Source of the DNA: Stenocarpella maydis | Lineage: Eukaryota; Ascomycota; Sordariomycetes; Diaporthales; Diaporthaceae | Length of the DNA stretch: 64,000 nucleotides | Assembly (NCBI GenBank): GCA_002270565.1 | Contig: NQMI01000183.1 | Location: forward strand, 1 to 64,000 | Direction: 5' to 3' | Shown: positions 1,733 to 54,039 of the stretch, one piece after another | Numbering within the stretch: position 1 is the first letter of the stretch | Layout: each line of letters starts with the position of its first letter | Program-made: the position numbers and the translations under genes | The notes under the pieces: model-generated | Databases searched by the model: none | Told to the model about the DNA's origin: nothing | The model's input: the letters and a program-made list of their open reading frames with translations, nothing else

Positions 1733-1738
1733 AAAAAA
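1733..1738 (-). terminator. RNA polymerase III T-run terminator of tRNA-Pro
   Basis: On the minus strand six consecutive T lie 13 nt past the tRNA discriminator base at 1751. A run of four or more T on the sense strand is the standard Pol III stop signal. Its presence supports the tRNA above being a transcribed gene and not a relic. Confidence 0.75.
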
Positions 1739-1750
1739 TAATTCACAGAG

Positions 1751-1898
1751 GGGTCTGGCCGGGGATTGAACCCGGCTGGAATGCTGTTAGTACATGATGA
1801 ATTGACCCCTGCCACGGTGGAGAAAGACTTACGACCTCGCGCAATTTGAGCATTAGGGTGAACCCTAAGCGCGAATCATACCACTAGACCACCAGACC
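1751..1898 (-). tRNA. tRNA-Pro (AGG) with a normal 37/38 intron and a second, spliceosomal-looking intron
   Basis: Read on the minus strand, the 7-bp acceptor stem (1898-1892 with 1758-1752) pairs perfectly, GGTCTGG with CCAGACC. The A box (TGGTCTAGTGG) and B box (GGTTCAATCCC) are intact. The anticodon stem is CGCGC/GCGCG and the loop reads TTAGGGT, giving anticodon AGG at 1866-1864 (proline). C at 1751 is the discriminator expected for eukaryotic tRNA-Pro. Intron 1 is 19 nt (1862-1844), at the canonical position after base 37. The mature molecule closes only if a second insert, 1832-1776 (57 nt), is also removed. It lies exactly between the variable loop (AGGTC) and the T stem (CCGGG). It begins GTAAGT, ends CAG and has TACTAAC at 1792-1786, as in fungal pre-mRNA introns. 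Removing both gives a 72-nt tRNA including the discriminator. How the second intron is spliced is inference. Confidence 0.87.
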
Positions 1899-2176
1899 AA
1901 TTGATGAAAATCGGGCTTGATTGAGTTGTTTATACCCACTGATTAGAAAGAATGCAAGACTGAATGTCAGGAAGGGATGCAAACATTCGAGTGCTAAAGG
2001 CCAAATAATGAATTCCCAGATGAAGCACCGGGAAATTATTCCGCGGCATGCCCTCGTACCACTCCAAAATCCGTTTCACCTTGCAGCGCAAATCCATCAC
2101 AACCCCAGAGTCACAAGGCTCCTGCAGGTCCCATGCTCCAACCGGCCACTCTGTGACTCACTCAATTCGTAAATAA

Positions 2177-43735: not shown

Positions 43736-45327
43736 CACTACATATCCGCTGCTAGAACCTTCTTAATATTCTTAAGGTTTTGCTTTATAATATCTTATAA
43801 TTCTTACAGGTTATTAATCAGCTGCTACATACTGTAATCCTATTCCCTTATTATTGGAGTTTTAAGCAGCAGCCCCTACTGCCTTAGTAGATGCTAATCT
43901 TAAGCCTTATTAAGTATGTACACCCTGCAGATTGGTTTATTATAATCTGCCCATCAGTTAGGGTTTCATAGATATTTTAAGGGTATACAGGAGTCCAGCC
44001 TTATTAGGGCGCATCCCATCTTATTATATTTCTAGTATAGGTACTAATTCTTAAAGTTATTATATTTATATATTTATTTAATGTTTTTACCTAAATATCA
44101 TTAGGGAAACCAGTCATACTTAGTTTTCTCCCTTATATATTCCTTATATCCATTATAGATATATAATACCCAGGAGATATCTTTATACTTATTATACATT
44201 AGGCATGCGCGTCCCATATCTCCTGGCCTCCTGTATTTCTAAGTAGGCTATCTTATAGTTTCTTTAAAAGGTCTTCCTGCAATTATAACCGCTATAATAT
44301 CAGTTCTTAGGGCTAGAAGGGGCGCTTATCCTAGGTAGTCTTGCAGTTCCTTCCACTAAGTTTGTAGTGCAAGTATAACCTAAGGGATAGGTTTTCCTTC
44401 CATCCTAGGGTCAATCTGCAAGAGTTCCTCCCTATTTTCTACCGCTAGGGTTCTTCCCTGCTTCCCGGAAGCATTCTTAGGAAACCATCTGATAGCTTCC
44501 TTATCACTATAGTAAGTAGCATAGCTATCATTAAAGTAAGCTATCTAGCTAAGCAATATATATATTATTCTAGGCTTCTAGGGATTCTTTATTAATAGGA
44601 TAGGCTGCTACCATACCTTATCTTTCTAATATTTCTTATATTAGAACTTAGTATATTATGAGAAGTATAGACTATTATAAAGGTCTTCTTCATTAGGGTT
44701 ATAGAAGTTGCATCCTTTATCCGGGTCTTAATCTAAGTATACCTGATATTAGTTATACATATTTATCCTATAGATGCAGTACTTACTCATAAGTTCCCAT
44801 TACAGTTTAGATCTAGGTGGTTCTTATATACTATAGGCAGCCATATTAGCTTAATGGGTAGCTTTATTAGCCTATTAGGTTCCTTTAGGTACTAACTTCT
44901 AGTCCCTATTTTTCTTTAAAGCTCTATATTCTAAAGCAAAGTATCCTATCTTATTATAGTTATAGTACTTAATGCTTTTCTTATCCTTATATTAGGCAAC
45001 ATCCAGCTCCATAGGGCCTGCATGCTATCCCTACTAGGTGCTTAGTTTCTAATACTTCTTTTCTATATTTAGTTTATACTTATAGAATGGGGGTTATTTA
45101 GAAGTTTATCCTTTCTTTTTTAAGTATTATTTATAGAGTCTATTATTAGTTTAAATAGCCATTTCCATATAATATAGAAAATTATTTAGTTAGTTTATAA
45201 TTTTACTTAGTTTATCCTTTACTTTATCCTTTAATCTATAGTAGAATATGAATTTCTTTATATTATTAGTATAGTTGATTTTAGTATAGATTCACTAGAA
45301 TTCTACAGTATAATTAATTACTAAGCC
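43736..45327. repeat. AT-rich RIPed repeat block
   Basis: Base composition changes abruptly at about 43.74 kb to AT-rich, stop-filled sequence. GC-richer islands at 44.29-44.50 kb suggest a decayed transposon of unrecognised class. It ends at the 22-N gap. Confidence 0.7.
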
Positions 45328-45349
45328 NNNNNNNNNNNNNNNNNNNNNN
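45328..45349. other. assembly gap (22 N)
   Basis: A 22-N run separates the RIPed block from the 3' part of the desaturase gene. The true distance and the continuity of the two sides are unknown. Confidence 0.99.
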
Positions 45350-45389
45350 CAGTGCCCGGGGCGTGATGGGGGGGGGGGTGGTCACTCAC

Positions 45390-51766: not shown

Positions 51767-53794
51767 ATGGCAAATGAAAGGAAGCCAAACAAGTCAGCAG
51801 CCCGCACTCCACGGCATGGAAGTAGCACCGCGGGCGCCACTACTACCACCACTGCCGGCAGCAGTAATAATAGCAGCAGCTTCAGCAGTGGCAGCGGCAG
51901 CGGCAGCAGCAGCAGCACCGTCGCCGCGGCCGGTGGGGGGAAGAAGCAAAGCAGGCAATACCGGCTCCCACACCCGCCTGTTCCTCACGCTCAGCCTTCT
52001 TTGCTACAGCAGTCGCAGCGGGTACCCGCGTCCGTCATCGCTTATCCCTCGGCACGACAGGCTGGCTACGAGCCGCCACAGGCCAGTGATCGTCGGTATT
52101 ACGCCTCTGGCGGCCGCGGCGCGGGCCTCACTGCCACACCGGCGGCCGCGGCGGCAGCGACAGCATCCGCGGGTGGTCTCTCCGTGCCGGCATCAGCAGC
52201 CGCAGCAGCCGCAGCCGCCGCCGGGCCCGCTGATGGCGCGACCGAGGCGGCGGTCCCGTCGGCCGACCCGGATATGATGGAAGCCAAGAAGGGACTAAAC
52301 AAATGGGGTGCCTTCGACTCGCTCAGCGGCTCCGGCACGGGCACTTTCGGCTTTGGACCCCTGCTGTTCCACCACGTAGATGAGACACCGCGGGACCCGT
52401 ACGACACCACCAACATGATGCTCAACGACCCCATCAGCTTCAACCCCATGAGCGCGATATCGTGGGCGAGGCTGGACGAGAGCCCTGCAAGCACCGGCGA
52501 GCTCGAGGCCGACCGCTCCTCCGCGGGACAGCAGCCGGACGGCACGGTCGCCGCTGCGTCCGGGGCCGCCAGCAGCAGCAGCAGCAGCAGCAGCCGGAAC
52601 GACGGGGTCAGCGGCCGTGCGAGATATGCCGATAGCCCGGCCAGCACGACGGCGAGCCCTAGGCATGGCAGCATCGCCTCGTATGCCTCCGACGTCTCCG
52701 ACTCTCGCACCTCATCCGTGGCGGGGAGCAGCGTCGGGAACATGTCTAGGACCTTGTCGGACACGAGTCTCGGAGCCCGGACGCGGAGAGGAGCACCGCG
52801 GGGCCACCGCCTGTCTTTGCCTCCCCATCCCCTCGCGAGCGCCTCATCCCTCGCGGTCAGCGGAGCTGCGGCGCCCGGGCGTGGGTGGAGGTTAGACAAT
52901 ACGGGGCCCGCCAGCCGCAGCAGCAGGCCTATCCAACCCAACAACCACCATCAAGCCGCAGTCCCATCTCCCACCGTGCCACCGCAAGTCACCAGCCCTA
53001 CACTGGCCAGTCTTATGTACCAACACCACCAACACGCTCACAACAACGTACACAACGCTCAAGCCAACACCGTCATGAACAACAAAGCTCCCAGTCCCGT
53101 CCACAACCTCCGCCGCCGCCGCCGCCGCCGCCACAGCAGCAGCAGCAGCAGCAAGGTCCAGCTGCAACAGTACTCCCGCCTCCACAATCACTTCCGCCTC
53201 CCCAATCACTCCCGGCTCCCCAGGTACCACCAGAGGCAGCGGCAACAGCGACGACAGACCTCCTCCTCTGCCTGGCCCCACACTGCAGCGCGCGCTTCCC
53301 CACCGAGCAGGAGCTGGCCGCGCACTACCGCGCCGAGCACGCGTTCAGGTGCACCTGGGCCTCGTGCTCGGCCGCCGGCTTCACGTCGAGCATGGCGCTG
53401 AACTGGCACATCAACGCCGAGCACCTGCTTATCTGCCCCATGCCGGCCTGCTGCGGCGCCTCATTTGGGAGCAAGAGGGCGCTCGACGGGCATATAAGGG
53501 TGAGTCGCCTTTGTCCCCGAGGGCTGTCGTGACCAGCGGATTTGGCTTCTGGCGTGTAATTCCTCGGCGAGGAGGGGGGGTAGCCAACTTATTTCTATTG
53601 ACACTCGAGTCTAGGGGGAATTCGTGACCTCTTCGGATTCGACACCGTCGGGGAGCTCGTCGTCGTCCGCGCCACGGAAGCATCCTCAGCAGCAGCAGCA
53701 GCAGCAGCAGCAGAATCACCATCGCGCGCGTCGCAGGTCGAAAAGTCCGAGTTTCTCACCCGGCCATCGGCCACCTCAGAGGGCGCGACGCTAG
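51767..53794 (+). CDS. C2H2 zinc-finger protein with long low-complexity N-terminus
   Basis: The start MANERKPNKSAART at 51767 opens about 370 codons rich in Ser, Ala and Gly, including the more conserved-looking LNKWGAFDSLSGSGTGTFGF and DPYDTTNMMLNDP. The zinc fingers are in another frame (codon register of 52885), reached between about 52.85 and 53.2 kb: CLAPHCSARFPTEQELAAHY, CTWASCSAAGFTSSMALNWH and CPMPACCGASFGSKRALDGH. A poly-Pro/poly-Gln tract precedes them. No convincing intron was found for the switch, so an indel or unusual splice is needed. A 115-nt intron (53500-53614, GTGAGT...CTAG) leads to the last exon, which ends RPPQRARR at 53794. The third finger lacks its second histidine. 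It is probably a nuclear regulator; the target is unknown. Confidence 0.75.
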
Positions 53795-54039
53795 GTCCTC
53801 GCCGCTTTCCCTCTGGTACTACCGGCATGGAAACAAAACGTGCTGCGATCACCGAGTCTTACTGGAGCGAAGTTGTATGGTTGAGAACGTTGGCCACGAG
53901 GTACGGCCATGGAAGGCCTGGCACAGGCGCTAGTTCTGGGGCAGTGCAAGCAGGCGAAGACAGGCGAAGACAGGTGGGTATAATTCTTGGTATTGGTATT
54001 GCATTCATGGGAAGCAGCCCTGGGCCAACAGCGGGAGGT

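Follow-up and report, generated by a model that had tools for sequence, protein, structure and literature searches.

Thirteen distinct inserts with the borders and branch-site motif of pre-mRNA introns interrupt the tRNA genes of Stenocarpella maydis, and they are very probably U2-spliceosomal introns in nuclear, Pol III-type tRNA genes, from which the spliceosome would remove them while TSEN would act separately on the ordinary introns at position 37/38. The inserts are 53-63 nt in length and are distributed over 12 distinct genes in five isoacceptor families, namely Pro(AGG), Pro(CGG), Lys(CTT), Ser(GCT) and Val(CAC). One of these genes lies in the window, which is the whole 64,000-nt stretch of DNA that was analysed (positions 1-64000 of contig C93). 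The observation made on this gene is confirmed and extends beyond it to further tRNA genes of the assembly searched (53.5 Mb, 312 contigs), the recurrence thus being described for one genome.

Anatomy of the tRNA-Pro(AGG) gene in the window

The gene and its surroundings contain the following features.

1931-1934, minus strand: TATA at -36
1751-1898, minus strand: tRNA-Pro(AGG) gene with two introns; 1751 is the discriminator base, and removal of both inserts gives a canonical tRNA
1881-1891, minus strand: A box TGGTCTAGTGG, uninterrupted, read from the sequence
1844-1862, minus strand: ordinary 19-nt intron at 37/38, TSEN type, called by ARAGORN after removal of the second insert
1776-1832, minus strand: 57-nt intron of pre-mRNA type in the variable loop at 48/49, from the sequence, ARAGORN and the shuffle control
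1827-1832, minus strand: 5' splice site GTAAGT of the 57-nt insert
1786-1792, minus strand: branch-point motif TACTAAC, with the branch A at 1787, 11 nt from the end of the insert
1776-1778, minus strand: 3' splice site CAG of the 57-nt insert
1762-1772, minus strand: B box GGTTCAATCCC, uninterrupted, starting 4 nt past the last base of the 57-nt insert
1733-1738, minus strand: T6 run, a likely Pol III terminator, beginning 13 nt past the acceptor stem

A preliminary description of this DNA had claimed a tRNA-Pro(AGG) with perfect acceptor and T stems, and on the minus strand from 1898 to 1751 the pairing is indeed complete in both (7/7 and 5/5). The letters and ARAGORN likewise agree with its account of a 57-nt insert at 1832-1776 with GTAAGT, TACTAAC and CAG, and with the ordinary intron that it placed at 37/38 (19 nt, 1862-1844); the Pol III terminator proposed downstream corresponds to the T6 run at 1738-1733. 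When the 57 nt are deleted, ARAGORN calls tRNA-Pro(agg) with the 19-nt 37/38 intron and the variable loop AGGTC, and this variable loop places the insert at 48/49. The unspliced gene gives no tRNA with ARAGORN (bacterial and standard code) or with Rfam at gathering score. From the box consensus we take the two uninterrupted stretches listed above to be the A and B boxes, and the original proposal of a spliceosomal-type intron in a tRNA gene that keeps both promoter boxes is the best-supported reading of the locus. The 5' half of a tRNA-Pro has no match in the scanned collections of genome contigs and viral contigs.

Elsewhere in the window, a desaturase reading frame contains a short N stretch at about 45318-45350; its nearest named relatives come from Diaporthe citri, at 89% identity, and from D. 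ilicicola, at 88%, which fits the Sordariomycetes that the preliminary description had proposed for comparison.

Inserts in other tRNA genes

Five Pro(AGG) loci were located in the genome by DNA search, and all of them carry a second insert. The loci on C100 and C56 are identical across the 3,145 bases fetched, leaving four distinct Pro(AGG) genes; this identity reflects either a duplicated segment or a redundant assembly. Another B-box site is common to the same two contigs (C100, L003, about 464.8 kb; C56, L004, about 28.8 kb) at the same 23.6-kb offset. The insert of the window copy lies at 48/49 (GAGGTC/GTAAGT..CCAG/CCGGG) and that of the remaining Pro(AGG) genes at 46/47 (GAGG/GTAAG..AG/TCCCGGG), a difference in register of 2 nt. 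A pattern search that required CTAAC ahead of a B box added one Pro(CGG) gene with an insert at 46/47. The Pro(TGG) gene on C279 is without an insert. Intact Pro(AGG) copies elsewhere, which the preliminary description had named as evidence against its own reading, did not emerge: every copy found carries the insert, and a search of the genome for the uninterrupted Pro(AGG/CGG) junction GCGAGGTCCCGGGTTCAATCCC, allowing up to 3 mismatches, was negative. A more general pattern, GTAAG..CTAAC..GTTCRANNC with 4-34 nt before the last element, matches 13 places as against 7 for the reversed-pattern control; six of the 13 are the Pro genes with inserts, and the other seven were judged by their matched letters alone.

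The restored 72-nt body is identical (72/72) in the four distinct Pro(AGG) genes and matches that of Pro(CGG) at 67/72 positions, whereas any two inserts of the four AGG genes are 42-52% identical. Pro(AGG) and Pro(CGG) have one insert position in common, yet their inserts are 39-49% identical, which speaks against a recent origin of the Pro intron. TATA occurs at -33 to -43 in four of the five distinct Pro(AGG/CGG) genes and was not found at that distance in the Lys, Ser and Val genes.

DNA search for tRNA-Lys(CTT) gave six loci, five of which have a GT..GCTAAC..CAG insert inside the anticodon itself, in registers 34/35 (C258), 35/36 (C278, C123 and C44) and 36/37 (C276), followed in each gene by an ordinary 20-22-nt intron at 37/38. 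The sixth gene, on C292, is without the anticodon insert, its sole intron being a 66-nt one at 37/38. After removal the genes on C278, C123, C276 and C258 yield one 73-nt tRNA (73/73), the same as the C292 body, in a comparison that leaves out the C44 gene with its extra insert; the five anticodon inserts are 68-89% identical to each other. The extra insert of the C44 gene (L050, minus strand, about 53499-53835 of the contig) is 63 nt long, lies in the T arm at 53/54 and reads GTGAGA..GCTAAC..CAG; its 3' AG keeps a B-box-like AGTTCGACCCC, and one T-loop C is missing. The C44 gene has possibly gained an intron recently or is in decay, the latter being suggested by the further T-arm insert and the missing T-loop C. 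All six loci (L046-L051) have a common 3' flank, TCAATTCCCG, past the end of the tRNA. Since the C292 Lys gene and the Pro(TGG) gene are free of the insert, these two amino acids may not strictly require its splicing.

The tRNA-Ser(GCT) gene on C226 contains a 60-nt GTAAGT..GCTAAC..CAG insert at 32/33, in the anticodon loop, and is without a 37/38 intron. DNA search of the genome gave no second Ser(GCT) copy, and an uninterrupted Ser(GCT) anticodon arm was not found in the genome with up to 3 mismatches allowed. The tRNA-Val(CAC) gene on C246 has a 55-nt GTATGT..GCTAAC..AAG insert in the D loop (about 19/20), just past the A box, together with a 38-nt intron at 37/38; the AAG at the 3' end of this insert is unlike YAG.

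Across the five families the inserts are thus found at 46/47, 48/49, 34/35, 35/36, 36/37 and 32/33, in the D loop at about 19/20 and in the T arm at 53/54, and never at 37/38. Apart from the C44 Lys gene, the Pro, Lys, Ser and Val genes have A and B boxes that are intact by eye, and a run of at least four T starts within 31 nt in all 13 genes listed (the 12 with inserts and C292). These counts refer to the loci covered by a tRNA catalogue, in which the RF00005 search scored 63 of 1,343 candidates, and by a B-box survey, which listed 100 of 213 places and from which the further places up to contig C123 (80 stretches) were added.

Some other loci of similar appearance were rejected. In Val(AAC) loci L062, L064, L065, L069 and L073 and Glu(CTC) loci L058, L066 and L074, the CTAAC beside the B box belongs to the tRNA body; L060, L171-L173 and L177 are, by eye, not tRNAs with such inserts. 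Two B-box sites, L054 (C37:68004) and L068 (C236:45090), have T-stem pairing and CTAAC upstream, with no confident tRNA assignment. ARAGORN calls the tRNA-like gene L091 (C1:399880-400310) as Phe(gaa) with a 92-nt insert, which seems by eye to form a long hairpin, in a body unlike that of an ordinary tRNA-Phe. L127 (C43:93240-93900) is a tRNA-Leu(AAG) gene, and close behind it its 3' part occurs a second time as an incomplete copy. Among 66 distinct ordinary ARAGORN calls (L006-L168, a few of them weak or near-duplicate), 37 have a 37/38 intron of at least 10 nt, up to about 90 nt, and some further introns among these calls read as long variable arms.

Splice signals, restored tRNAs and alternative readings

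GT..AG borders and CTAAC are present in all 13 distinct inserts, and 9-13 nt separate the branch A from the 3' end (a distance computed for 12 inserts and read from the printed sequence for the thirteenth, that of the C44 T arm). RCTAAC occurs in 12 of the 13 and YAG also in 12, while the donor is a strict GTRWGY in 10 and has one mismatch in each of the other three (GTACGT, GTTAGT and GTGAGA). The fungal rules given in a 2017 survey of fungal U3 introns (PMC5832005) are GTRWGT, RCTRAY and YAG, with 6-36 nt between branch and acceptor. The Pro(CGG), Ser and Val genes were found by searches that required CTAAC, so that for them the independent evidence is confined to the GT-AG borders and the restored products; no such requirement entered into finding the window copy, the other Pro(AGG) genes and the Lys genes. 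When each of the 13 inserts was put through 20,000 mononucleotide shuffles, the three signals (a GTNNGY donor, an AG acceptor and, at 6-36 nt, CTAAC; the C44 T-arm insert itself misses the last base of this donor) arose together at most once. A P450 gene in the window has two coding introns, of 61 and 65 nt, with GTAAGT/GTAAGC, ACTGAT/ACTGAC and CAG, and the size of the inserts resembles that of these two, the only coding introns measured.

Alternatively, the inserts could be TSEN introns of the bulge-helix-bulge type that occupy non-canonical positions, like those of nucleomorphs and Cyanidioschyzon, and the GT..AG appearance would then be incidental. Non-canonical TSEN introns do occur in a few eukaryotes (PMC4090602), an ordinary 37/38 intron accompanies the insert in each of the 12 distinct genes except Ser(GCT), and the unspliced Val gene is also readable as Val(cac), with the right anticodon and a single 86-nt intron. 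This last reading scores 101.3 as against 111.2 after GT-AG removal; its D stem consists of three G-U pairs, and its anticodon stem is weaker. The TSEN alternative is very unlikely, since the signals that unite all 13 inserts occur together in none of 37 ordinary 37/38 introns (those of at least 10 nt parsed by ARAGORN in the fetched loci, 38 rows less L067, which is the Ser gene itself). A crude 4-bp test of boundary pairing matched 3 of 12 inserts, at no consistent place. When 12 Pro, Lys and Ser loci with inserts (C56 included in the count) were each read with a single intron at 37/38, eight took a wrong identity, three gave no call and one retained the right anticodon.

Removal from GT to AG leads ARAGORN to the expected anticodon in 11 of the 12 genes; the twelfth is the Lys gene on C44, which is recognised once both of its inserts are removed, though with a lower score (108.1 versus 113.4). 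For Ser(GCT), the best tRNA score among 3,510 brute-force deletions of 40-99 nt is that of the exact GT-AG deletion. The same procedure does not single out the GT-AG deletion in Pro and Lys, because ARAGORN is permissive towards short introns and long variable arms. A conserved host RNA, a diverged insert and fixed splice signals are together the pattern that selection on splicing would be expected to leave.

More improbable still is that these genes are decayed or pseudogene copies, unused, into which introner-like elements or chance sequences have inserted. Introner-like elements are known in fungi (PMC4457414), and the Lys gene on C44, with two inserts and one T-loop base short, would fit such a history. 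Decay is nevertheless difficult to reconcile with predicted bodies that are 72/72 and 73/73 identical despite diverged inserts, and neither pattern nor DNA searches found an uninterrupted form of Pro(AGG/CGG) or Ser(GCT). Furthermore, when the C44 T-arm insert and the complete Pro(AGG), Lys and Ser genes served as queries in DNA searches, tRNA loci alone were matched, which speaks against a near-identical high-copy element. Finally, it is extremely improbable that the mature tRNA keeps the Pro insert as an extended variable arm, a form that ARAGORN accepts in partial deletions. The insert varies between copies in sequence and length and by 2 nt in register, and inserts of this kind also split the anticodon of Lys, the anticodon loop of Ser and the D loop of Val, sites at which a retained insert should destroy the tRNA.

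Proposed processing, known systems and significance

If the inserts are spliceosomal introns, Pol III would transcribe each tRNA gene from its intact A and B boxes, and the spliceosome would recognise the GT donor, CTAAC branch site and AG acceptor and excise the 53-63-nt intron by two transesterifications. TSEN and tRNA ligase would separately take out the 37/38 intron where one is present. Because the GT-AG intron of Lys(CTT) lies inside the anticodon, its spliceosomal removal should come first, rebuilding the anticodon loop used by TSEN, which would act afterwards.

U6 is transcribed by Pol III, and a spliceosomal intron is removed from the U6 pre-RNA of some yeasts. The introns of fungal U6 snRNA and U3 snoRNA resemble the present inserts in placing GT-AG borders and a branch motif inside small structured RNA genes; the hosts described here differ in being tRNAs, from five isoacceptor families, and a 37/38 intron is present in most of them as well. 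Apart from U3 and U6, according to the fungal U3 survey, no small structured RNA is known to carry introns often; the survey also reports paralogues with and without introns as well as intron sliding (PMC5832005). Canonical tRNA introns, which TSEN and tRNA ligase remove from 37/38, are represented in 11 of the 12 distinct insert-bearing genes; the second insert departs from them in its mRNA-type signals and in its location in the D loop, at 32/33, in the anticodon, in the variable loop or in the T arm. The tRNA genes of nucleomorphs and Cyanidioschyzon merolae are similar in that they may contain more than one intron, in the D, anticodon and T arms, whereas the introns of Guillardia theta are 3-24 nt long and those of C. 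merolae are tied to bulge-helix-bulge motifs and the splicing endonuclease (PMC4090602). For eukaryotes, the same review of tRNA introns assigns the non-canonical ones to nucleomorphs and C. merolae; the word spliceosome is absent from its main text. The stwintrons and introner-like elements of Pezizomycotina are comparable as nested or recently gained spliceosomal introns (PMC8469720, PMC4457414); they reside in pre-mRNA, whereas here an intron of spliceosomal type abuts one of TSEN type and no sequence family was found. Among the literature matches listed, which cover titles and abstract openings and lie outside preprints and most subscription journals, none describes a spliceosomal intron in a tRNA gene, and a 2026 review (PMC13149111) holds tRNA splicing to be independent of the spliceosome.

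One consequence would concern annotation, in that the single-intron reading assigns eight of the 12 Pro, Lys and Ser loci to Leu, Arg, Gln or Thr and misses three. The existence of paralogues with and without the insert, in several registers, also makes intron gain and sliding testable in an RNA of known structure. If the inserts are spliced as proposed, two nuclear splicing systems would meet on single transcripts and Pol III tRNA precursors would be substrates of the spliceosome. The inserts likely represent a class of nuclear tRNA introns removed by the spliceosome, in Lys(CTT) before TSEN, and some decoding, such as that of AGC/AGU, for which the only Ser(GCT) gene found is interrupted, would be spliceosome-dependent; translation in this fungus would then depend directly on the spliceosome.
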